Below, one piece after another: positions 8,474-23,912 of a stretch of DNA of 64,000 nt; within the stretch, counting starts at the first letter, position 1, and every line of letters begins with the position of its first letter. A program made the position numbers and the translations under genes. The notes under the pieces were generated by a model. It was not told where the DNA came from. It searched no databases and saw only the letters and a program-made list of their open reading frames with translations. Source of the DNA: Microvenator marinus (GTDB taxonomy: Bacteria; Myxococcota_A; Bradymonadia; Bradymonadales; Bradymonadaceae); NCBI RefSeq assembly GCF_007993755.1, contig NZ_CP042467.1:769501-833500 (forward strand), written 5' to 3'.

Positions 8474-10330
8474 ATGAAGAAATTGGCTATATTTACAGCC
8501 CTCGCGGCACTCACACTTTGGGGTTGCGACTCGGAAGTCACGACGAATCAGGGCGACAACAACGCTCAACCAAATAACATCGATCCGAACAACACCTCGG
8601 CACAAAACAATCCGCAGTGTCTGCAGAACTCCGATTGCGCCAGCGGGCTATGCTCGCCCCAAGGCACCTGCATTGGAAATGGCAACACCACCAACAATGC
8701 TGAATGCACCGAAGGAGTCTTCAACGCTGAGTGCGGAAACTGCGACCCGAACTGCGTCAAAAACGGCGTCGGCAGCCCTGACAATCCGTTCAATCTGGAT
8801 AATAACGGCAATGACGATGAGTCGTCTCAAGGTGTCGTGCTCGACCCTAACGGCGGCATTACTATCGATATTCAGCGCGTAGAAGCCCAGTTCATCTGGA
8901 TTTCGAACACGGGCGAAGGCACGGTTTCGAAATTTGACACCCGCACGTTCGAAGAAAAGGGTCGCTACTTCACAGGTCCTTCTGGCGCCGGAAACGACCC
9001 ATCACGCACCTCCGTCAACACCTTCGGAGACGTGTTCGTCGCCAACCGAAGTGGCATGACGGTCAGCAAGATCTCAGCACTCGGAGAAGGATGCCCAGAC
9101 ACCAACGGCGACGGCGTAGTTACGACCTCCTCGGGCTCTGATATCTTGCCATGGGGACAAGATGATTGTGTGCTTTGGAACGTAGCCCTTAACGGCGGCG
9201 GAGTTCTTCGTGCCGTGGCGGCTCAAGACGTAAGGGCATCTGACGACACCCTGCAACCCGCCGTTTGGGTCGGTGGTTGGTCAGGACGCGTCTGGAAGCT
9301 CTCGAGCGATACCGGTGCAGTTCTCGTCGACACCGCTTCCCCGGTGAGCACCTACGGCTTCGCGCTCGATGGGCGTGGCAACCTCTGGATTTCCGGGTGG
9401 ACCGATAACGCCATCGGCCGAATCAACACGAACCTATGCCTCACAACAGATTCCTGTGCTGACCCGGTTTGTGACTCAAATGGCGATGGAAGCGGCGACG
9501 CCTGCGTCAAAGAGAGAATCGCTATCGGCTACTCGCCGTATGGAATCACGGTGGACTTCAACCAACGCGTTTGGGCCGGTGGGCAGAATATCTTGCGCTA
9601 CGACCCTCAAGCCGCAGCAGGAAGCCGAATCGTCTCGGCACCTGCCTCGTTCATCCACGGCATCGCTGCGGACGATAAGGGCTTCATCTGGGCCGCTGCG
9701 ATGACCACCGGTGTGGTCCGTTATAGCGCGGACGACCCTACCCAAAGCGTCGCCGTGCCCGACACGCAATTTAGCTCGAAGGGTATCGCCGTGGACTTGG
9801 ACGGAAAGGTTTGGTCCATCAATCTCTCAAACTCAAGCGCCACCGTGGTCGTGCCGGGGCCAACGCTCAACGACCATACCGCCACAACACCCATCACTAA
9901 TCTCGTTTCCCCATATACCTATTCGGACATGACGGGCTCTCAGCTTCGCTTTGCAACGAATGAAAGAGGCTTCTACCGCCGTATCTTCGAAGGATGCGAT
10001 AACTCCAACAGCGCTGGAATTGAGACAGATTGGCAAGAGCTTCGATGGACGGCACAAACGCCTGGCGCATCGTCCATCACATTCCGCGCTCGCGGCGCAA
10101 ACTCGACCACGGCTTTGACTACGGCAGAGTGGATCGACCTCGCGACTGTGCCACCTACGACATCACCCTTCGACCTCGCTGCTGCCCTTGCGGCCGCCAA
10201 CCTCGACGGTGTTCGATACGTAGAGCTCGAAGCGTCGCTAACAGCCGTGCGTGACGCGTCAAACAACGTGTCCGCCCCTGTGCTTCAAACGATGGAAGTT
10301 ACCTACTCATGCCCGGTAATTCTTAACTGA
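8474..10330 (+). CDS. NHL/virginiamycin-lyase-like beta-propeller lipoprotein
   Basis: Exported lipoprotein of 618 residues: signal peptide [18 protein letters not shown] with a lipobox Cys, then an Asn-rich linker and a Cys-rich segment with a CxxDSDCASGxC-like pattern. The central part shows repeated blades ([58 protein letters not shown]) typical of NHL or Vgb-like six-bladed propellers that bind ligands or protein partners. Calcium-binding-like DxNGDG segments ([17 protein letters not shown]) are inserted. The ATG at 8474 has GGGAGG upstream. The stop region overlaps the convergent purL end by 8 bases. No catalytic residue can be assigned; surface binding or adhesion is inferred. Confidence 0.85.
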
Positions 10331-12503
10331 GGCCCTTGAGACCACTCTCGTGAGCCGCTTCCAAGGCAGACACTGCCACTTCTCCATGCCCGCTCACCCT
10401 AAGGACTGGCGCATGGATAACTCGCCCAAGCACCTCAAACTCAATCTGGTGCCGTTGGGCTAGTCCCTTGATATCAGCCAGGGAATCGGGATCAAAGCTC
10501 AAGGCAATGCGGCTGGCGCTCTCTCCAAATGCCACATCCGTCAGCTCTCCGTCCGGCAACGCGACCTCTAGTCCCAGTTTAGAACCCAACGCTTTTTCAG
10601 CCAGACAAACCAAGAGTCCACCTTCTGAACAATCATGGGCTGAATTCACGTACCCCAGAGAAATCGCCTCGATAATGAACGCCTGCAGCCTCGCCTCGCG
10701 CTCCAAATCGATCTTTGGCGGCATGCCCTCAAACGCACCCTTGAGGCGTTGATACTCGCTGCCCCCGAACTCGCCAGGGAGCGTCACGCCTACCAGAGCC
10801 ACAAGGTCGTCTACTGTCCGAACTCGCGAGCCGCACGTGATGAAGGACTCAGACTCGAACGCCCCAACGCAACCGAGCGTCGGTGTTGGAAAAATATCCT
10901 TTCCGGCAGACGCGTTGTAGAGGCTAACGTTCCCACCGACGATGGGGGCATCTAGCGCCAGACACGCCTCGGCCATGCCTCGAATCGCCTCCGCAAACTC
11001 CCACATGATTTCCGGGTTTGTGGGATCGCCAAAATTGAGACAATCCGTGGTCCCAAGAGGCTTTGCCCCTGTACACGCCACATTTCGCGTGACTTCGGCC
11101 ACGGCGAGCTTGGTGCCTTCGTAAGGATTGAGGTAGACGAAACGACTATTGACGTCGACGGCCGCGGCGATGGCACGATTCGTACCAGGAATCCGCAGAA
11201 CTGCTGCATCGGCACTCCCCGGCCCAAGTACGGTTCCAAGCCCCACCATATGGTCAAACTGCTCGTAAATCACTCGGCGAGAGCAAATATTTGGCGCACC
11301 TAAGAGCTGGACCAAGTCGCCAAAGAGGTCCGCTGTAGGCTCCACCTTTGCGGGTTGAGCCTCGCGGATCCGCGCCGGCTCGGATTGTGGTCGATCGTAG
11401 ACCGGTGCCGATGACGTCAGCACACTCACCGGTAAATCGCACTCCACCTTGCCATGGTGCACGACTTCAAAACGCCCGGTATCGGTGACCTCTCCAATTT
11501 TTGCCCATTCGAGTTCCCACTTGGAGAATACGCGACCGACCTCCTCTTCGCGCCCCTGCGCAATCACAACGAGCATCCGCTCCTGGGACTCACTGAGAAG
11601 AACCTCGTACGCGTTCATTCCCTCTTCGCGCATCGGAACATCTTCGATGACCAATCTGAGACCGGTTCCTCCGCGGTCCGCCATTTCGACCGACGAGCTC
11701 GTCAATCCCGCAGCCCCCATGTCCTGAATCCCGATAATCGCGCCGGTCTCCATCAACTCAAGACACGCCTCGATGAGCAATTTCTCACGGAATGGGTCAC
11801 CAACCTGGACCGTCGGGCGTTTGTCTTCAGACCCTTCGTCAAATTGCTCGCTAGCCATGGTCGCGCCGTGAATACCGTCGCGGCCCGTTCCAGCCCCTAC
11901 GTAAAAGACCGGATTTCCAGGCCCCGTCGCACTTCCCTTGAAGATGCGGTCGATCTTCGCGACACCCACGGTAAATACGTTCACCAGGATATTGCCGTTG
12001 TAGCAGTCGTCGAAATAGACCTCACCCCCAACGGTCGGAACGCCAACACAATTGCCATAACCCGCGATTCCACCGACAACGCCATGAAAGAGGTGTTTCG
12101 TCTTCGGGTGATTGATATTCCCAAAGCGCAGACTGTTCAGATTGCCGATGGGTCGAGCCCCCATCGTAAAGACGTCGCGCAGAATACCACCCACACCTGT
12201 CGCCGCACCTTGATACGGCTCAATGAAGCTCGGGTGATTATGGCTCTCCATCTTGAAAATCGCGGCGAGCCCGCCACCGATATCCACAGCACCAGCGTTT
12301 TCACCGGGCCCTTGAACCACCTGAGGACCGGTAGTCGGCAACTTCTTGAGGTGAACGCGACTCGACTTGTACGAACAATGCTCGCTCCACATCACACTTA
12401 AGACGCCGAGCTCGCACAACGAAGGCTCCCGCCCCAACTCATCCAAAATGCGCTGGTACTCGTCGGCGCTCAAACCGTGTTCTTTGGCTAGTTCCTCCAT
12501 CAT
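10323..12503 (-). CDS. purL: Phosphoribosylformylglycinamidine synthase subunit PurL (small type)
   Basis: Catalytic subunit of FGAM synthase, converting FGAR, glutamine and ATP to FGAM in the fourth step of purine synthesis. Its 726 residues match the short PurL that needs PurS and PurQ, both encoded just upstream. Visible marks include [41 protein letters not shown] and the second-half glycine-rich GGNVSLYN motif. The ATG at 12503 overlaps the purQ stop (ATGATGG context) with GGAGG six bases upstream. Last gene of the pur operon; its end overlaps the convergent lipoprotein gene by 8 bases. Confidence 0.97.
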
Positions 12504-13201
12504 CGAACACCTCCACTTCCCCAGCCGACAAAAGATTCAAAGATTGCGCGACCATCTTCACCTCCCAATATCAACTCGGAGGCGCGCTCAGGATGGGGCA
12601 TCATACCCACTACATTTCCACTTCGGTTCGAGATTGCTGCGATATTGCCCAAACTGCCATTGGGGTTAAACGCATCGCCAACCTCACCAATCGAGCTCGA
12701 ATAGCGCATCACGATCTGATCGTTGTCCTCAAGGCTCTTAAGTTCATCTTCGCCCACGGTGTAATTTCCTTCAGCATGCGCAATCGGAAGGTTTAAAATC
12801 GTGCCGCGAGGAAGCCCACGAGTTGCCGAAGAACGCGACGTCTCCACGCGAACATCAACGCGCTTGCACACAAACTTCAGGCTCCGATTGTGCAGCATCG
12901 CCCCGGGAAGCAAGCCACTCTCAAGCAAGATCTGAAAACCGTTACAGATTCCGACCACCGCACGCCCCGTGCTCGCGAGCCGCCGCACCTCATCCATGAT
13001 GGGACTCAGCTTTGCCATGGCTCCACAGCGAAGATAATCGCCATAAGAGAACCCGCCCGGTATAACCACGCCATCAAACCCCTCGAGGGAGGTTTCTCGG
13101 TGCCAAACACCCACAGCTTGGACGCCCAACACGCTATTGAAGATATGGAGGCAATCTCGGTCACAATTAGAGCCGGGAAACACGATAACCGCGATTCGCA
13201 T
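12500..13201 (-). CDS. purQ: FGAM synthase glutaminase subunit PurQ
   Basis: Class I glutamine amidotransferase that supplies ammonia to PurL. The 233-residue sequence begins with [16 protein letters not shown], contains the nucleophile elbow VVGICNGFQ with the catalytic Cys, and the MPHPERASE motif carrying catalytic His and Glu. It lies between purS (two bases between stop and start) and purL (overlapping). All three FGAM synthase subunits are therefore translationally linked, as expected for a 1:1:2-type complex. Confidence 0.97.
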
Positions 13202-13203
13202 GA

Positions 13204-13446
13204 CTACTCCTCGATCTCGACGACGTAATCTTCGATCACTGGATTTACCAATAACTCACGGCACATCTTCTCAACCTGCGCCAGGATCTCCTCAGAGGTC
13301 CCGCTTTCAAAATGCAGGTCGATAACCTTGCCGACCTTCACCGACTTGACCTGATGACCTAGACGCTCAAGACCGCCTTCAACCACCTTTCCTGCGGGAT
13401 CAAAGACGCCTTTACGGTTGTGAATCAATACTCTCGCTCTAGGCAT
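13204..13446 (-). CDS. purS: FGAM synthase subunit PurS
   Basis: Small bridging subunit of the FGAM synthase complex. The protein is 80 residues, normal for PurS, and shows the family pattern ARVLIHNRKGVFDPAGKVVE, then LERLGHQ and a central VKVGKVIDL strand. The chosen ATG at 13446 has GGAGGAG seven bases upstream and overlaps the end of purC by 8 bases. Longer in-frame starts exist inside purC but lack support. Confidence 0.96.
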   Translation of the reverse strand: MPRARVLIHNRKGVFDPAGKVVEGGLERLGHQVKSVKVGKVIDLHFESGTSEEILAQVEKMCRELLVNPVIEDYVVEIEE

Positions 13447-14155
13447 GCTCTCCTCCAATTGTAATTCCAAGCCGGTCAACCACCTCGCGATAGCCAACCA
13501 TGGGGTCTCCAAGGTCGCGCCGGAAGACGTCTTTATCCAGCCGTCTGCCACTTTCGGTCTCCCAAATTCTACAGGTGTCTGGACTGACCTCATCACCTAA
13601 GAGCAGTTCTCCAGACTCGTCGAAACCGAACTCAAGCTTAAAGTCCACCAGCGTCAAGCCCGCCTCGTTGAACCAAGGCCCAAGAACCGAGTTGACCTGA
13701 AGCGCTCTTGTTTTCAGCTCGGCTAGTGTTTCCTCGGAACAGATTCCGAGCACAAAGACATGTGAATCGCACACCAAGGGGTCTCCGAGATCGTCTCGCT
13801 TAAAGTAGGTCTCTACGATCGGAAACTTCAGCGTGACGCCCTCTTCGAGCCCTAGTCTCTTTGAAAGACTGCCCGCGACCACATTACGAACCACCACCTC
13901 AAGAGGTACAATCTTTAACCGCTTGATTCGCATATCTCGCGCGTTCTCAAGACCCATGAAATGAGTCGATATCCCCGCACTCTCTAACTTCAAGAAGGCA
14001 GCCGCGCTCATTGCGGCGTTGATCTCTCCCTTTCCTTCGAGTTCGGCTTTTTTCTGACCATTAAACGCTGTGGCAGAATCCTTGAATCGCTGAATAGCCA
14101 CGTCGGGCTCAGCAGTAGGAATGATCTGTTTGGCTTTGCCCTCATATTCGATCAT
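13439..14155 (-). CDS. purC: Phosphoribosylaminoimidazole-succinocarboxamide synthase
   Basis: SAICAR synthetase: ligates aspartate to CAIR using ATP in purine synthesis. Its 238 residues include the N-terminal YEGKAKQI nucleotide-binding strand, the VPLEVVVRNVVAGSL signature and LVDFKLEFGFD / LLGDEVSPDTCRIW near the active site. Length and motifs are those of the bacterial single-domain form. It follows purB by 9 bases and overlaps purS, so the order purB-purC-purS-purQ-purL forms one unit. Confidence 0.97.
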   Translation of the reverse strand: MIEYEGKAKQIIPTAEPDVAIQRFKDSATAFNGQKKAELEGKGEINAAMSAAAFLKLESAGISTHFMGLENARDMRIKRLKIVPLEVVVRNVVAGSLSKRLGLEEGVTLKFPIVETYFKRDDLGDPLVCDSHVFVLGICSEETLAELKTRALQVNSVLGPWFNEAGLTLVDFKLEFGFDESGELLLGDEVSPDTCRIWETESGRRLDKDVFRRDLGDPMVGYREVVDRLGITIGGEHA

Positions 14156-14164
14156 GAGCGAACC

Positions 14165-15463
14165 TCAATGTGAGAAAACTCGTTGAAAAATCTCTTCGAC
14201 GCGTCGCAGGACGTGCTCCAAATCGAAACACTGGTTTAGCTCTTCTTGGGTGATTCCATCTTTAAACTCTTCAGCCTCGAGTGCGAGCTCCTCAAATCTT
14301 TGGTCATTTTCGAAAGCGCGCATCGCCACTGCCTGAACCTTGGCGTAGGCCGCCTGCCGAGAATCACCGTTCTGAATCAACTTGAGTAAAATGCCCTGGC
14401 TGAAGATCAAACCACCACTGAGCTCGAGATTGCGCTTCATTCGGTCGGGATAAATCACGAGGTCACGAACCACTCTCGTAAACCGATGGAGCGCAAAATC
14501 AAGGGTGACGGTGGCATCCGGTGCGATGACTCGCTCTACCGATGAGTGGGAGATATCCCTCTCGTGCCACAAGGCCACGTTTTCAAGAGCCGGCGTCACG
14601 TAGCCTCGCACTATCCGCGCAAGCCCCGTCACGTTCTCGCTCAAGATCGGGTTTCGCTTATGAGGCATCGCGCTCGACCCCTTCTGCCCCACATGAAACT
14701 TCTCTTCTGCTTCGCCCACTTCCGTGCGTTGCCAGTGCCGAATCTGCACCGAAAATTTCTCCAGGCTCGACGCGATCAAACCAAGGACACAAAAGAACTC
14801 GGCATGCCGATCTCTTGAAACCACCTGACTTGCGGCGAGTTCCGGATTGAGCCTGAGGACTTCGCATACGTGACTCTCGACTTCGATTGGGATCTGCGTG
14901 AAATTGCCGACTGGCCCCGAGATCTTTGCAGTATTGACGCTCTCGCGAGCAGCCTTAAGACGGATACGATGCCGACGCACCTCGTCGTACCACATGGCGA
15001 AGACAAGTCCGGCCGTCATCGCTTCCGCATGAATTCCATGCGACCGACCCACCATAGGCGTATGTTTGTGCTCCATAGCCCGGGCTTTGAGCGCCGCCAT
15101 GAGGCCCTGGAGCCCTTCGTCCAAGAGATCCGATGCTTGGACTAGCTGGAGGGCAAAAGCTGAATCCAGAACGTCTGACGACGTCATTCCGTAGTGAATC
15201 CACCTGCCGTACTCCTCACCCACGCTCTCTTCGAGACTCTGCACAAACGCAGCCACGTCGTGGCGCGTAACTGCCTCAATCTCCGCAACTCTTGCGGGGT
15301 TTAAGACCGCATTCGCCTGGATGTGCGCTGCAGCCTCTTGGGGAACCACGCCCACTTTGGCCCAGCCCTCAACGGCCGCCAACTCAACCTCGAACCAACG
15401 TCTAAGCTTGGATTCCTCGCTCCAAATCTCAGCCATTTCGTTTCGACTATACCTTGGAATCAT
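14165..15463 (-). CDS. purB: Adenylosuccinate lyase
   Basis: Catalyses two eliminations of fumarate in purine synthesis (SAICAR to AICAR and adenylosuccinate to AMP). Of 432 residues, the sequence shows the HYGMTSSDVLDSA segment, catalytic-His region VGRSHGIHAEAMT, and the fumarase/aspartase signature SSAMPHKRNPILSEN with the mobile-loop Ser. The ATG at 15463 is preceded by GGAGG. Only 37 bases separate it from the upstream zinc-ribbon/pseudokinase gene, with no U-tract hairpin visible, so read-through from that gene is likely. Confidence 0.97.
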   Translation of the reverse strand: MIPRYSRNEMAEIWSEESKLRRWFEVELAAVEGWAKVGVVPQEAAAHIQANAVLNPARVAEIEAVTRHDVAAFVQSLEESVGEEYGRWIHYGMTSSDVLDSAFALQLVQASDLLDEGLQGLMAALKARAMEHKHTPMVGRSHGIHAEAMTAGLVFAMWYDEVRRHRIRLKAARESVNTAKISGPVGNFTQIPIEVESHVCEVLRLNPELAASQVVSRDRHAEFFCVLGLIASSLEKFSVQIRHWQRTEVGEAEEKFHVGQKGSSAMPHKRNPILSENVTGLARIVRGYVTPALENVALWHERDISHSSVERVIAPDATVTLDFALHRFTRVVRDLVIYPDRMKRNLELSGGLIFSQGILLKLIQNGDSRQAAYAKVQAVAMRAFENDQRFEELALEAEEFKDGITQEELNQCFDLEHVLRRVEEIFQRVFSH

Positions 15464-15500
15464 GCTCGCCTCCGGCTTGGCTTCCCCCTGCTCTTACAAT

Positions 15501-17702
15501 TTATTCAGGGTCAGCGCAGCAACGAAACCCGATATCCCCAGCAGAGGACCCTGGCGCTTTGGCCGAGGAGTACTTGCAGCTGGCAACATCCTCGTCGCTC
15601 TCAAAGCTACCACCGGCAATTCGCTGCTCTTCAAGCCACTCGTGAACGTTACCGCTCATGTCGTAGGCACCTGAGCGAGAACGGCACTTTTTGGATGAAC
15701 CCACCGCCTTTAGTGATCGTTCAAAGCCATCTTCGTCCGCTGTATTGCATGCCTCAGCGTCAAAGCTATTTCCGTATGGGTAGTTGCCGCCACAAGCTGA
15801 ACGCCACTCACTAGACGCGCAAAGCCGCTTTCCCGAAGACGTACAGATTTTCTTGGCTTCGAACCAATTCACACGGGTTTTAGGTTTACCGGACCCTGGA
15901 TATTCGTAGGTATCGATACACACATTGCCGGCCTTTCTTTTGACCAGCCTCATGCCTGACGGACACCCTGTTCCGTCCGACTTGGCCACGGGCTCAGCCT
16001 TTGCCACAGGCTCTACCTTGGCGGCAGGCTCTGTTTTAGCCGGCTCGACCTTCGCAGGCTCCTCAACTTTGGGCTCTTCTTTGGGTTCGGCTTTTTCTGC
16101 AACTTCCGGAGTCACTTCTGCGGGATTGGTCTCGGCTGGGTTGGTTTCAGTCGACTCAGTGTTTTGAGGCTCAACCGCCTCTGCCTGAGTGTTCACGGCC
16201 ATTGCCACTGTATCAGACGCCTTTTCCGCAGCCTCAGCTATCTTTGGCGTCTCAGCCGCTTCAGGCGCCTCAACTTTGCCCTCTACCTTAGGCTCCACCT
16301 TGGCGATCTTCTCTTTTGAACCGAGCTGAACGGGCTCTTCCTTCTTCTGCCCGACATTGGCGGCGATCACACCTATCACGACCACCAACAAGACGATCCC
16401 GATCAGGAGTTTACCCATCCCGCTATCTTCTTGTTGGCCTGGAGGGGCACCAATCGCCGTTTGCGTGTGAGCGCGCTCCGAGCGCTCCTTCGGCGCTTCG
16501 GGTGGCTTCTCACGCGTTCGCGAGACCTCGGTCGTAGGCAAAACGTCCATAATTTCGGCGTCTCGACTGTATTCGACCGTAGAAAGCGACTCTTCGTCTA
16601 CCGAAAGTTCCTCGCGCTTTGAGGCTTTCTCCGAGTTGGCCGGAGCCTTTGGAGCTGGAGGCGGCCCAGGAGGTGCCGGTGGCGGAGTTGAAGCCGCTGG
16701 AGCCCCCGGAGCAGGCGGTGGTGCAGGAGGTGCTGGTGGCGGTGCAAGCGGCGTGTGCACGCCCGAATCAAAGTCCTGAGAGCCAAGAGAACCAGTCTCC
16801 ATCAAAGTGACGAGGTCCCGAGACATAGCGCTCAAGTCCGAATACCGCTCAAGAGGATCAAATGCAGTCGCGCGGCGGCAGATCGTGTCCAGGCCAGAAA
16901 GTTCGGAAGGTGCTGTGCCCGGCGTGTAGTCTGACCCGAAGACCATTTCACCCAGAATTATGCCCAAACTATAGACGTCCGCCTGAGCACCTGCCTCGAC
17001 TTCTTCCGAATGCAGCTCTGGAGCGACGTAAGGACTCTGGGAGTCTTGATTCGCAATCCGAGCCACATCCAGCGAATTGAGAAGATAGAAGTCTGTGATC
17101 TTCAGCATATCTGGCATGAAGATCAGATTTTCGGGCTTCAAATTGCCATGCACAGACCCGCCAATGGCGGCCGCAATCTGACCCAGAATTGGCTCGACTT
17201 CGTCAACGCTGAAGCTCTCTCCTTTTGAGCGCCGCAAGCCCAACACCTTCCTAAGGCTCAAGCCCTCAAGGTATTGCATCGCGACCCAACCATGGTCCTT
17301 ATGCATCCCACAATCGTGTATTCTCACCAGATTTGGATGGGTGCGGTTTCGCGCCGCGCGCGCGCCAGACAGAAATTTCTCGTGATGGAGCGGATTCAGC
17401 GTGAGTTCCTTCTTGAAGATCTTCAACGCAACATCGGCATCGATCTCTTCATCTCGAGCGCGATACACCTCACCAAAGGGTCCCTTACCTATCAACTCAC
17501 CTAACGAATATCTCTCAGCTATCTTCTCGCCAGGAGGAAAGAGCTGGTCGTCCAGGCGTATGGCCTTGAGTTCTTGCGAGATTCGCAAGCCCTTCGATGA
17601 CGCGATATCGAATCGTTTGACCGATTTGACTAAGTCAGCACCACAATTAGAACAGGTCGTGTCGGATGCCTCTACCGGGCTGCCGCATTGATGACAAAGC
17701 AC
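15501..17702 (-). CDS. Zinc-ribbon / pseudokinase / transmembrane / FGE-sulfatase-fold protein
   Basis: A 733-residue membrane protein. Residues 3-20 form a CxxC...CxxC zinc ribbon. Residues about 64-325 have a Hanks kinase fold with the ATP-binding Lys (K94), but the catalytic loop reads HGNLKPEN, with Asn187 instead of the proton-acceptor Asp, and DFG reads DFY (D204); this is probably a pseudokinase. A Pro-rich linker, one membrane helix (LLIGIVLLVVVIGVIAANV) and a long Glu/Ala/Lys/Pro tract lead to residues 579-733, an FGE-sulfatase (SUMF1-like) fold ending in GFRC. Only one of the paired catalytic cysteines of true formylglycine enzymes seems present (C709), so a binding role is likelier. 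GTG start with GGAG upstream. Directly upstream of purB. Confidence 0.9.
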   Translation of the reverse strand: MLCHQCGSPVEASDTTCSNCGADLVKSVKRFDIASSKGLRISQELKAIRLDDQLFPPGEKIAERYSLGELIGKGPFGEVYRARDEEIDADVALKIFKKELTLNPLHHEKFLSGARAARNRTHPNLVRIHDCGMHKDHGWVAMQYLEGLSLRKVLGLRRSKGESFSVDEVEPILGQIAAAIGGSVHGNLKPENLIFMPDMLKITDFYLLNSLDVARIANQDSQSPYVAPELHSEEVEAGAQADVYSLGIILGEMVFGSDYTPGTAPSELSGLDTICRRATAFDPLERYSDLSAMSRDLVTLMETGSLGSQDFDSGVHTPLAPPPAPPAPPPAPGAPAASTPPPAPPGPPPAPKAPANSEKASKREELSVDEESLSTVEYSRDAEIMDVLPTTEVSRTREKPPEAPKERSERAHTQTAIGAPPGQQEDSGMGKLLIGIVLLVVVIGVIAANVGQKKEEPVQLGSKEKIAKVEPKVEGKVEAPEAAETPKIAEAAEKASDTVAMAVNTQAEAVEPQNTESTETNPAETNPAEVTPEVAEKAEPKEEPKVEEPAKVEPAKTEPAAKVEPVAKAEPVAKSDGTGCPSGMRLVKRKAGNVCIDTYEYPGSGKPKTRVNWFEAKKICTSSGKRLCASSEWRSACGGNYPYGNSFDAEACNTADEDGFERSLKAVGSSKKCRSRSGAYDMSGNVHEWLEEQRIAGGSFESDEDVASCKYSSAKAPGSSAGDIGFRCCADPE

Positions 17703-17828: not shown

Positions 17829-18335
17829 CTACTTGCGGCGCAATACGATGACGGTCTTGGCGAGCGCCTTTTGACCATAACCTCGGGAAAACACCATCAA
17901 GTACTTACGGTCAGGAGCAAATCGTTCCTTGGAGAGACGTTGATGCCCCGCCAAGATGTTGTGCTTGGCATTCTCGGGATAGAACGTGAACGTATCCACC
18001 AGCTGCTCTGTGCCCTTCACCGTCACATCGTAGAACGTAATCGAAGCCTGAAGCGTGCCCACTGGCTTCTTCAAAAAGGTCATGTACTCGAATTCCCAGT
18101 CTTTTTCGCCCGTGGCAAAAAGCTCATGAGTGTTGACCTTCTTCATGTGCTTAATCATCTCCTTGTCCGAGTCAAAACGACTGGGGAATCGCTTCTCACT
18201 GACGATGATTTTACCGCCCAATTTCTTTTCAGGGGACGCCATCGCGAGTTGAGGGAAGCTCAACATCATCAGGGTAATCCCAAGTAAAATGGTCATGAAC
18301 GGGGAGAACGGCTTCGCGGTCGTGACGCTTCTCAC
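17829..18335 (-). CDS. Hypothetical secreted protein
   Basis: About 168 residues, not recognised. An N-terminal signal peptide is visible (hydrophobic MTILLGITLMMLSFPQLAMA, cleavage likely after AMA), followed by a Lys-rich mature domain of mixed beta character (KIIVSEKRFPSRF, EFEYMTFLKK, ASITFYDVTV) ending LMVFSRGYGQKALAKTVIVLRRK. The GTG at 18335 has GGAG six bases upstream and supplies the positive residues of the signal peptide; TTG at 18341 and ATG at 18296 are alternatives. It lies between two kinase-family genes on the same strand. The pattern suggests a small periplasmic or surface beta-sandwich, without further support. Confidence 0.7.
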   Translation of the reverse strand: MRSVTTAKPFSPFMTILLGITLMMLSFPQLAMASPEKKLGGKIIVSEKRFPSRFDSDKEMIKHMKKVNTHELFATGEKDWEFEYMTFLKKPVGTLQASITFYDVTVKGTEQLVDTFTFYPENAKHNILAGHQRLSKERFAPDRKYLMVFSRGYGQKALAKTVIVLRRK

Positions 18336-18483
18336 TATCAACTCCGGGTCTGTTGGAACATTGTCTGGACGCAGTATAAAAGATTAATTGCGTCATAAAC
18401 AATGATGAATTTCAAATGGTCGAAGAACTAAAAGGTCAAACGAAAGCACGTCCCTAATATTCAAGTTTTTTGGGAGAAATCTT

Positions 18484-20343
18484 TCAGTCGATCATTTTTG
18501 GAGGAAGCACACCGCCTGGGGCTTCGTCTGGCACTTCTTCAGACTCTTTCTCCGGCACCGGTTGATTTGCGACCTCGGGCTCCTTCGCGACCTCGGGCTC
18601 TTTCACAACCTCGGGCTCTTTCACAACCTCAGGCTCTTTCACAACCGCAGGCTCTTTCACAACCGCAGGCTCCTTCACGACCTCGGGCTTCTTCACAACC
18701 GCTGGTTTTTCGGGAGCGTTTGAGCCTTGAGGATCGTCAACTGGCTTTGTGGTAGGCACCTTAATCTGCCGCTCCTCACATCGGACCAATGGTCCCTCGA
18801 TCATCGCTTTAAATCCCTGCGCGCCTTGATCCAGCGACTCAAGCATTTGCCGTGCGTGGCCACACTCCTCATTCCGAATATGCCCCAAGAAGTCAGTCTT
18901 AAACCGATCGTATTCGGCCAGTCGTTCAGCAGCCTCGGTCGCCCTAGCCCTCAAGTCAGAGAATTCCTGGGGAATGGATGTCGTCGAAGGCATCATACCT
19001 CGCGCACCTTCAACATCACCCTTCACCAAGAGCGCCTCAACATTCTCGAGCTTGGTCTCTATCTCCGTTCGAGAAACTTCAGTTTCGGGCGCAAGCGCAT
19101 TCCAAGGAGACCACCAGATTAGCCCGCCAATCACCACCAAAGTGGCGATGATCAACATATTTCTCAGGTGCTTCGACTCACGATCCTCGGTGGCGGCCTC
19201 ATACGGCCTCGAAATCTCCACGGAGTCCAAGACTCCCGGCGTCAAAGGGTCTTCCCATCCCGCCATCGTCTCGGCGTGCGGATCTGTCTCCTCGGCGTCA
19301 TTGAAATCGCCGAGCATCACCGTATTTGCACGCACGGACTTAAAGATCTCTTGACTGGAATCCACACTAATCTTTGCCGTGGAACCCCCAGATGGAGACT
19401 GCAGCTCTTCGAGTGCCTCATAGAGGTCATCTGCGCTCTGGTAACGCTGACCGCGCTCTTTGTTCAAACACTTGAGGATCACCGCTTCTACCTTCGGTGA
19501 AAGGGATGAATTCAAGCCTGTTGGGCGAGGAGGTGTCTCATTGAGCTGCTTGTTCAAAACGATGAGCTTATTCTTGCCTCGAAACGGCAACTTCCCGGTC
19601 GACATGAAGAAAAGGATGATTCCCAAAGCGTAGATATCGCTTCGTGGATCCGCCACTTCACCGCGCGCTTGCTCGGGAGACATGAACTCCGGCGTACCAA
19701 AAACTGACCCAGTTTCCGTGGTCGGACCGTCCTCTTCATCCACGATCTTGGCGATCCCAAAATCCAGAACCTTCACCGCGAAACGTCCCCGCGCCGTCGG
19801 CGTCAGCATCACGTTATCCGGCTTTAGATCGCGATGAATCACGCCCTGAATGTGGGCCGCAGAGAGAACCTCGCAAATCTGCATGCCAACCTGAAGAATC
19901 TGAGCAGAGGTAAACTCGCCTAGCTCTTTCATCGTCTCCGCAAGGTTCTTGCCCTCAACGAACTCTGTGATGATGTAGAGCGTTCCATCCTCGTGCTGCC
20001 CATACTCAAGCAGTGTCACGGCGTTTGGATGATTCACCCGGCAATACGAGCGCGCTTCGTTCAAAAACCGGCCAACGATTCCCTCGTCATCGGCGAGCTT
20101 TCGGCTAAGAAACTTGATGGCAACCTTCTGACCGAGCGAATCGTTGATTCCAAGATAGACCTCGCCCATCCCGCCCTGCCCTATCTTACGCTCGATCCGA
20201 TACTTCCCGCCGATCGTAACGCCGAGCAAACGGTCGTCCTCTTGAACCACCGACACCTCACTCAAAGCGGATGGCTGGTAGCTATCGGGCACCGACGTGT
20301 CCAACCCGCCCAACTTTGGCTCTCGTTCGTCCAACTCATCCAA
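18484..20343 (-). CDS. Transmembrane Ser/Thr protein kinase with VVKEPx tandem-repeat tail
   Basis: Canonical Hanks kinase at residues 48-310 with GQGGMGEVYLG loop, K77, HRDLKPDN (D172) and DFGIAK (D194), so active by sequence. A membrane helix near residue 390-412 (LIIATLVVIGGLIWWS) puts the C-terminal part outside. That part has a predicted helical segment with two Cys, then at least seven six-residue repeats (VVKEPE/VVKEPA) and an acidic end. The repeats resemble wall-spanning Pro/Lys/Glu linkers. TTG start with GAGG about eight bases upstream. Divergent from the YhaM-like gene. External input sensed by the tail is an inference. Confidence 0.93.
   Translation of the reverse strand: MDELDEREPKLGGLDTSVPDSYQPSALSEVSVVQEDDRLLGVTIGGKYRIERKIGQGGMGEVYLGINDSLGQKVAIKFLSRKLADDEGIVGRFLNEARSYCRVNHPNAVTLLEYGQHEDGTLYIITEFVEGKNLAETMKELGEFTSAQILQVGMQICEVLSAAHIQGVIHRDLKPDNVMLTPTARGRFAVKVLDFGIAKIVDEEDGPTTETGSVFGTPEFMSPEQARGEVADPRSDIYALGIILFFMSTGKLPFRGKNKLIVLNKQLNETPPRPTGLNSSLSPKVEAVILKCLNKERGQRYQSADDLYEALEELQSPSGGSTAKISVDSSQEIFKSVRANTVMLGDFNDAEETDPHAETMAGWEDPLTPGVLDSVEISRPYEAATEDRESKHLRNMLIIATLVVIGGLIWWSPWNALAPETEVSRTEIETKLENVEALLVKGDVEGARGMMPSTTSIPQEFSDLRARATEAAERLAEYDRFKTDFLGHIRNEECGHARQMLESLDQGAQGFKAMIEGPLVRCEERQIKVPTTKPVDDPQGSNAPEKPAVVKKPEVVKEPAVVKEPAVVKEPEVVKEPEVVKEPEVAKEPEVANQPVPEKESEEVPDEAPGGVLPPKMID
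18571..18696. repeat. Seven 18-bp in-frame tandem repeats in kinase tail
   Basis: Seven near-identical 18-bp units (for example aacctcgggctctttcac) run without interruption and encode VVKEPx hexapeptides on the minus strand. Units differ at a few positions, mostly third codon bases or the Glu/Ala position. Such arrays can gain or lose units by slippage while staying in frame. Confidence 0.95.
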
Positions 20344-22286: not shown

Positions 22287-23912
22287 TTATTGAGCGATGC
22301 GAACAGACTCGGCGAATCCGTCAGCTCCTCTTCCATCCGCACTCGCGGCGGATCCACCAACACCGGCTTCACCCTGAGTCACCATGGTATTGATGGGTTG
22401 AACACTCAGCGCGCGGTTTGAGAAAAGCCCGATCGATGGTCCACCAGCGCCACCGCCGCCCTCGCCTCCACGGCCACCAGTCCCACCTCGACCTCCTGCG
22501 CCGCCGTTTCCGCTGTTTTCCTCTTTGTTGCCGCCACTTCCTCCGTCGCCACCTGTTCCGCCTTGACCTCCCCCACCACCGGAACCTCCGGCACCTCCAG
22601 CACCGCCGTAGATCTGACAATTTCGGATCGTGATATCGCTTTCCAAGAGCATCACCGCCACAGAAGCACCTCCATGACCTCCGCCCTCTCCACCGGCACC
22701 ACCACAGCCGCCGCTACCACCACCGCCTCCGGCACCGCCCCAGGAATCACAACCGATTGCTTCCGAGCCACCACCACCTCCGCCGCCGCCACCACCGCCT
22801 TTACCAGGGGCACCGGCTTCGCCAGGTTGACCACTTTCACCTAGCCATTGCCAACCGTTGAACTGTCCTCCCGAACCTCCCCCCGCTCCCGGCGCACCAC
22901 TGCTCCCCGATGGGCCATCTTGCCCCTTAAACCCTGCCGTGCTCTGACCACCCCCATTTCCACCTTCGCCGCCACTATCGGGCGCTCGCTGACCACTCTG
23001 GCCGCTCGATGAGCCCTTTCCAGACCTTCCTCCAGCGCCGCCTCGGCCAACATCGGAACCACACGCTGGCTCAGCGCCCGGACCTACACTCGGAGCATCG
23101 CTTGCATCTTGATTCTTGCAGAAACCGAGGGTACCCGAATCCGGAGGCGCATTTTCCCCGTTGCTGCCACGATTCCCAGTGGTTCCGGTTGCCCCCGTAT
23201 CTCCAGATGCTCCATCACCTCCACGGCCACCCGTGACCCGCAAATTCTGAAGAATCAGGCCCGTACTTCCTTCCACCAAGATGCCCACTGCCGTCTGACC
23301 TGGCTCCCCGGTCCCTCCTTCCACCGTCAAGTCCATCACAAGAGTTCGGGACGAAATATTCGTAGCTCGAATCGACGGATTGCCACCGCGAATGGTGGTC
23401 TTCGCACGTCCATCTCGGCGCCAGCCAAAGCCATAGCCGCCCGCCAGATTCACGCCGTCGACCAGTTCAAAACCGCCATCGTAGAGACTCTCTTCCACGA
23501 GCACCCACGTCTTTCCGGTAGCAGCGGCTTCTTCGATGGCGGCTCCAACACTGGCTTTCGGCAAAGACTTTGTGCCCGGATTCGCATCATCACCGTAAGT
23601 GGCTACAAAAACACTTTGCGATTCGTCACCGTCGATACCATCACAATTCGCGTCAAAAAACGAAGGGTCTGGCTCATCCAACTGGTCTGGAGAGCACTCC
23701 CCCATTTCCTCTTGAGGGCCCATATCTTCCCCCGGAAAGACCACGTTATTGGTGATTCCGGTGTTCCCGTCGTCTGGACCGGTAGTTTGGGTGCCCGAAT
23801 CTGATTCCGAGTTATTCGATTGAAGCAGCGGCGGATCATCGCCTCCGCAGGCGCTTATGCCAAATACCGCCAAGAGTGTGAGGACTCGCCACATCGCCGA
23901 GCAATCGTTCAT
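22287..23912 (-). CDS. Glycine-rich lipoprotein with parallel beta-helix-like N-terminal region
   Basis: A 541-residue predicted lipoprotein (signal ending FGISAC). Residues about 95-225 look like a DUF1565/right-handed beta-helix start (VFVATYGDDANPGTKSLPKA, then IRGGNPSIRATN, LVMDLTVEGG, LILQNLRVTGG). From about residue 228 to 491 it turns into a glycine-dominated region with GxG and GGxGG patterns, one run of eleven Gly, and a Cys-containing insert. The ending (SNRALSVQPINTMVTQGEAG) returns to normal composition. The DxNCDGIDGDE motif resembles calcium-binding segments found in myxobacterial surface proteins. Downstream of sbcC by 57 bases. A cell-surface or matrix role is inferred. Confidence 0.85.
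   Translation of the reverse strand: MNDCSAMWRVLTLLAVFGISACGGDDPPLLQSNNSESDSGTQTTGPDDGNTGITNNVVFPGEDMGPQEEMGECSPDQLDEPDPSFFDANCDGIDGDESQSVFVATYGDDANPGTKSLPKASVGAAIEEAAATGKTWVLVEESLYDGGFELVDGVNLAGGYGFGWRRDGRAKTTIRGGNPSIRATNISSRTLVMDLTVEGGTGEPGQTAVGILVEGSTGLILQNLRVTGGRGGDGASGDTGATGTTGNRGSNGENAPPDSGTLGFCKNQDASDAPSVGPGAEPACGSDVGRGGAGGRSGKGSSSGQSGQRAPDSGGEGGNGGGQSTAGFKGQDGPSGSSGAPGAGGGSGGQFNGWQWLGESGQPGEAGAPGKGGGGGGGGGGGSEAIGCDSWGGAGGGGGSGGCGGAGGEGGGHGGASVAVMLLESDITIRNCQIYGGAGGAGGSGGGGGQGGTGGDGGSGGNKEENSGNGGAGGRGGTGGRGGEGGGGAGGPSIGLFSNRALSVQPINTMVTQGEAGVGGSAASADGRGADGFAESVRIAQ
22440..23231. repeat. Low-complexity glycine-codon-rich region
   Basis: About 790 bases of GGN-rich sequence on the minus strand encode the Gly-rich domain of the lipoprotein at 22287-23912. 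Several antisense open frames here are composition artefacts. No single fixed repeat unit is evident; it is degenerate GGxGG material. Confidence 0.85.

Follow-up and report, generated by a model that had tools for sequence, protein, structure and literature searches.

The gene at 15501..17702 of the window (the whole stretch of DNA that was analysed, 64,000 nucleotides) encodes a membrane protein, here called PSK, that joins a kinase fold to an FGE-like fold, each of which has lost residues that active enzymes of its kind require; the gene holds an ancient position beside the purine (pur) operon and has stayed under purifying selection in relatives from which that operon has gone. Our preferred reading, to which we give about an even chance, is that PSK is a pseudokinase of ancient origin with a single membrane pass, acting as a receptor or scaffold, which would signal through a partner protein and be general in its role rather than a purine switch. 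Its parts are as follows.

15501..17702, minus strand: PSK, 733 aa, membrane protein (zinc ribbon, pseudokinase, transmembrane segment, linker, FGE-like domain); ORF, Pfam, orthologues
17631..17696, minus strand: N-terminal zinc ribbon, residues 3-24; Pfam Zn_Ribbon_1
16827..17510, minus strand: pseudokinase domain, residues 65-292; Pfam Pkinase PF00069, E 7.8e-29
16353..16412, minus strand: single transmembrane segment, residues about 431-450; one strong segment by hydropathy
15504..15974, minus strand: FGE-like domain, residues 577-733 (157 aa); Pfam FGE-sulfatase PF03781 at 603-728, E 1.1e-14

Reading along the chain from its GTG start codon, which has a Shine-Dalgarno-like stretch (GTGGAG) ahead of it, we see a zinc ribbon whose four cysteines are all invariant in an alignment of 29 orthologues, the kinase fold, a Pro-rich stretch, the transmembrane segment, a Glu/Pro/Lys-rich linker and finally the FGE-sulfatase domain; Pfam and hydropathy thereby agree with a reading made earlier from the sequence alone (the sequence-only reading), which had described a membrane protein joining kinase and FGE folds. 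Kinase folds are cytoplasmic. As the C-terminal domain carries 10 cysteines that are invariant in the family alignment, and these fit an oxidising compartment, we infer a topology with the kinase fold in the cytoplasm and the FGE-like module beyond the inner membrane.

A model of the zinc ribbon and kinase fold (AF2, pLDDT 86) finds its best PDB matches in PknA, PknB and PknI, and the best sequence matches are likewise of the StkP/PknA/PknB type. The window's protein retains Lys94 (in VALK), the Asn of KPEN (Asn192) and the Asp of DFG (Asp204), with HGN (His185-Gly186-Asn187) standing in for HRD and DFY (Asp204-Phe205-Tyr206) for DFG, just as had been noticed earlier; to this we add that Gly113 occupies the position of the αC Glu. 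Measured against active Hanks-type kinases, PSK has the fold and the VAIK Lys and lacks the αC Glu, the HRD Asp and the DFG Gly, and so falls within the definition of a pseudokinase, i.e. a kinase fold conserved without at least one of the required catalytic residues. The same holds broadly across 30 orthologues of the class. HRD, the retention of which would speak against the proposed loss, is found in none of them, its Arg being replaced by Gly throughout, whilst the Asp position is occupied by Asp in 13, Asn in 14 and other residues in three (Asp absent from 17/30); the αC Glu is missing from all 30 and the Gly of DFG from 28, two retaining DFG. Members from another class have HGG, and one of them (L172) has Glu at the αC position. 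The catalytic Asp has not been lost everywhere, since the nearest relative (L028/L066, 62% identical) carries HGD, yet a conventional active site is seen in none. We conclude that the kinase fold is probably catalytically dead. That it is instead an atypical, active kinase, making use of HGD or HGN as divergent kinases do, would fit with the retained Lys94, KPEN Asn and DFG Asp and with HGD in 13/30 orthologues, and some of these (about half with HGD, two with DFG) could retain activity, which we count against the receptor reading; we nevertheless judge it very unlikely for PSK itself, given the universal absence of the αC Glu, the Asn at the window's catalytic position and the absence of the DFG Gly from 28/30.

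The C-terminal domain (AF2 model, pLDDT 88.7) has human FGE (SUMF1; PDB 2aft/1y1e) as its top fold match, the paralogue SUMF2 (1y4j) also being among the best, the shared fold being indicated by profile as well as by model. Here the alignment overturns one detail of the sequence-only reading, in which one of two catalytic cysteines had seemed to be kept: neither is, as Cys336 and Cys341 of the human enzyme, the catalytic, copper-binding pair, correspond to Ser702 and Ala707; every sequence of the family alignment has the Ala and almost all have the Ser. Cys709 and Cys728, which are kept, correspond to Cys346 and Cys365, each of them a partner in a structural disulfide of the human enzyme (PMC4505483); Cys709 was accordingly rejected as a retained catalytic residue. 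PSK therefore has the FGE-sulfatase fold, in a shorter form (157 aa) than SUMF1, without the catalytic pair, and is probably catalytically dead at this end also. The domain is absent from some orthologues (L090, L093) and from L192 and L193, and L092 has a different end; its absence is a point we count against the receptor reading. L192 and L193, from a more distant family (f43), are pseudokinase-like genes that lie directly downstream of pnp.

The window's genome (G000, 5.85 Mb; the window is 769501-833500 of its contig C1) holds 103 kinase-like matches to the PSK kinase domain and at least three kinase-FGE fusions; a search of the available literature on such fusions found no direct description. 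Two other copies (G000:C1:1845025-1846530 and 1943888-1946083) carry, as PSK does, a kinase and an FGE-sulfatase domain within a single frame, but at least one of the two has an intact HRDLKPDN, whereas in PSK catalytic residues are gone from both folds. With PknB/StkP-type Hanks kinases it shares a cytoplasmic kinase fold, a single transmembrane segment and an extracytoplasmic C-terminal module, from which it departs in its missing catalytic residues, its N-terminal zinc ribbon and an FGE-like ectodomain in place of their PASTA repeats.

Around PSK the window is organised as follows, all genes being on the minus strand.

18484..20343, minus strand: KIN, a membrane Ser/Thr kinase with canonical VAIK/HRD/DFG; ORF, Pfam, hydropathy
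17829..18341, minus strand: product of 170 aa that belongs to no known family, encoded between KIN and PSK; L066 and L177 have it too, and so does L073, there in the reverse orientation
15464..15500, minus strand: 37-bp gap from PSK stop to purB ATG, with a GGAGG Shine-Dalgarno sequence 5 nt before the ATG
14165..15463, minus strand: purB (adenylosuccinate lyase); ORF, Pfam
13439..14155, minus strand: purC; ORF, Pfam
13204..13452, minus strand: purS, with some doubt over its start codon (the ORF at its longest reaches 13596); ORF, Pfam
12500..13201, minus strand: purQ; ORF, Pfam
10323..12503, minus strand: purL; ORF, Pfam

The order purB-C-S-Q-L downstream of PSK and the exact length of the gap bear out what had been read from the sequence. 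No promoter-like or terminator-like match was found in the 37 bp, a scan of little power since site counts for the region lie below the shuffled expectation, and an Rfam/riboswitch search of the operon returned none, its two chance matches lying far below threshold.

Whether the adjacency with purB recurs among relatives, the check proposed in the sequence-only reading, can be answered in the affirmative. Orthologues were sought with a kinase-domain profile in a set of genomes of which many are fragmented; PSK is single-copy in 18 of 21 genomes of the window's family, which includes Lujinxingia vulgaris (L030). Several other families of the class have it too, as does a second class (G336, G381, G383, G387) of the same phylum, apparently the Myxococcota to judge from named relatives and PMC11509652. 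Six genera of the window's family (G000, G003, G006, G008, G009, G013) have PSK followed directly by purB-C-S-Q-L, and in G004 the FGE end is followed by purS-purQ. Beyond the family, G044 and G048 of family f6 have the order infB-DHH-truB-pnp-dut-PSK-[REC-GGDEF]-purB-purC-purS-purQ-purL-purF, with FGE-GGDEF-purB in G041 and G042 on contigs that start within the PSK linker; in the other class (G381, G336) we see infB-DHH-truB-pnp-dut-PSK-purB-purC-purF. An FGE-only version is found in G031 of family f3 (L133:7212-7853), where a lipoprotein with the FGE-like domain alone and a lipobox-like LGTAGC has its end overlapping the start of purB. In all, native pur and PSK are linked in 12/12 genomes where both can be followed, these coming from two families and another class, besides the FGE-only version. 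Confinement of the adjacency to the window was thus rejected, as was the absence of any pur link hinted at by the first three loci, where PSK was apart from pur in two, which wider sampling overturned. Between the pseudokinase and purB of the f6 loci L083, L084, L122 and L123 lies the REC-GGDEF gene, with a degenerate GGDEF motif in L083.

From the PSK stop to the next start, the window has 37 bp, whilst the other loci of its family have 96, 132, 152, 10 and 23 bp and those of the other class 2 and 7 bp; in f6, where the GGDEF gene comes next, the spacing is 2 or -1 bp. As local gene order is high within the window's family, only the recurrences across families and classes carry weight, but these, with gaps down to 2-7 bp, make co-transcription likely, and PSK is probably co-transcribed with pur where pur remains. 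The arrangement pnp-dut-PSK-purB predates the split of the two classes; in the window's family the left flank has since been replaced (pnp now lies elsewhere) and the right flank retained. This history bears on the suggestion that there is no functional link at all, PSK being an envelope protein kept where it is by the slow turnover of a housekeeping cluster, infB-truB-pnp-dut-PSK-pur, whose transcription it shares. Housekeeping genes make up all the flanks in other families and in the other class, the window's family conserves the neighbourhood in its entirety (so that adjacency there says little), and PSK survives the loss of either flank. That the pnp-dut flank broke in the window's family with PSK-purB kept, that gaps in the deep lineages are short enough for translational coupling, and that KIN and GGDEF genes recur next to PSK all speak against it, and we regard it as possible but rather unlikely.

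PurL could not be detected in nine PSK-bearing genomes of the window's family (G001, G002, G010-G012, G016-G019; completeness 77-99%), seven of which are also without a detectable adenylosuccinate-lyase C-terminus; in any one MAG such an absence is weak evidence, but all nine show it, several at 96-99% completeness, and it agrees with the loss of purine synthesis reported for this group by Mu et al. 2020 (PMC7460792). Saying that, PurE was found in the window's genome and other pur-positive genomes, contrary to the statement of PMC7460792 for its 13 genomes. Eight of the nine loci are readable, G016 being at a contig edge, and in each the operon has gone from beside PSK, which is followed instead by the genes normally found beyond pur (c1 gene, acyltransferase, epimerase); an orphan purC remains at the locus in G001. 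Since G003 has PSK-purBCSQL-c13-acyltransferase, the operon was lost from between PSK and those genes. Relatives with PSK unlinked to purB, which the sequence-only reading had named as counting against it, do therefore exist, but mostly through loss of pur itself.

PSK has remained intact in these lineages; among the Lujinxingia-type, pur-less copies, dN/dS is 0.03-0.05 for the kinase domain and 0.02-0.05 for the FGE-like one. A purine regulator would be lost or relaxed once pur was lost, and all nine PurL-less genomes keep the gene. Two further genomes, G015 and G020, have a different purEKBCSQL set on other contigs; the native locus beside PSK is absent in both, and unresolved in G014. Genomes of another family with a different, unlinked pur set still have PSK after pnp-dut. 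The distinct purE-K-B-C-S-Q-L cluster is seen at L127, L128 and L129 (G014, G015 and G020), with purF too in L128, and is possibly a horizontal gain or assembly contamination.

These observations bear on the proposal that PSK is a dedicated envelope sensor, co-transcribed with purB-L, that tunes purine synthesis by altering the activity or expression of the pur enzymes. Adjacency with purB in six genera, another family and another class, gaps of 2-10 bp in several, and the overlap with purB of the FGE-only lipoprotein in G031 would all favour it, as would the precedent in Gram-positives of kinase control of PurA, exerted by Stk/PknB in staphylococci and streptococci (PMC3179523). Set against this are strong purifying selection on PSK where purL and purB have been lost, and its retention where pur is foreign, or different and unlinked (G015, G020, G046, G047, G053); we think such a sensor distinctly unlikely, and the purine-linked envelope sensor originally put forward is not supported, in view of the persistence of PSK, under purifying selection where measured, in PurL-less genomes. 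Nor is a link between a membrane Ser/Thr kinase and purine synthesis new as such; the Stk/PknB kinases differ from PSK in being active, acting on PurA and having no FGE domain, and linkage to purBCSQL genes is not described in PMC3179523. The function of PSK needs no purine genes, given that it is kept under selection where they are lost.

Under the receptor or scaffold reading, the zinc ribbon and a dead kinase fold that still bears an ATP pocket would sit in the cytoplasm, with the long Glu/Pro/Lys-rich spacer holding the disulfide-rich FGE-like module, also dead, beyond the inner membrane and most likely available there to bind a ligand; nucleotide binding or a conformational change may then relay the signal to a partner. 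Conformational relay of an extracytoplasmic signal is the simplest mechanism to fit all the observations, and has been proposed for other pseudokinases (EcpK, PMC12004946). In the window's family that partner would most likely be KIN, the active membrane kinase encoded just upstream, and in the sister family f6 possibly the REC-GGDEF protein encoded just downstream. Any coupling to purines would run through shared transcription and growth-related expression, with no dedicated switch. KIN adjoins PSK in 13 genomes of the window's family (the window included), pur-positive and pur-less alike, and this constancy with or without pur likewise tells against the purine link first proposed. KIN is not beside PSK in G001 or G006, nor at any locus outside the family, which counts against the receptor reading and led us to reject KIN as the ancestral partner. 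A bolder version, in which an ancient, catalysis-free envelope receptor links an outside signal with purine synthesis, dUTPase and PNPase, hence nucleotide metabolism, in at least two Myxococcota classes, in one family by way of a c-di-GMP enzyme whose gene separates PSK from purB, and came under a new arrangement with a partner kinase when predatory lineages gave up purine synthesis, attracts us less, and we would give it only a slim chance.

Bacterial Ser/Thr pseudokinases are mostly known as lists of degenerate sequences; in Myxococcus xanthus, 11 of 99 STPKs are reported to be pseudokinases, and a scaffold role has been proposed for the pseudokinase EcpK (PMC12004946; PMC6791715). PSK has in common with these a kinase fold without catalysis, but EcpK is a bacterial tyrosine pseudokinase of different fold, and none of them has been shown in a pnp-dut-pur cluster. 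PSK, in comparison, occurs once per genome in its family, keeps to one place in the genome and is conserved across the class and beyond, and the deletion of the purine operon from several lineages in which it stayed amounts to a natural experiment through which its partner and function become open to direct test, as well as a caution against taking operon adjacency as regulation. Further upstream, at 22287-23912, the window encodes a very Gly-rich, secreted-looking protein with no Pfam match, beside a PspA/IM30 homologue; its gene recurs upstream of PSK in 11 loci.
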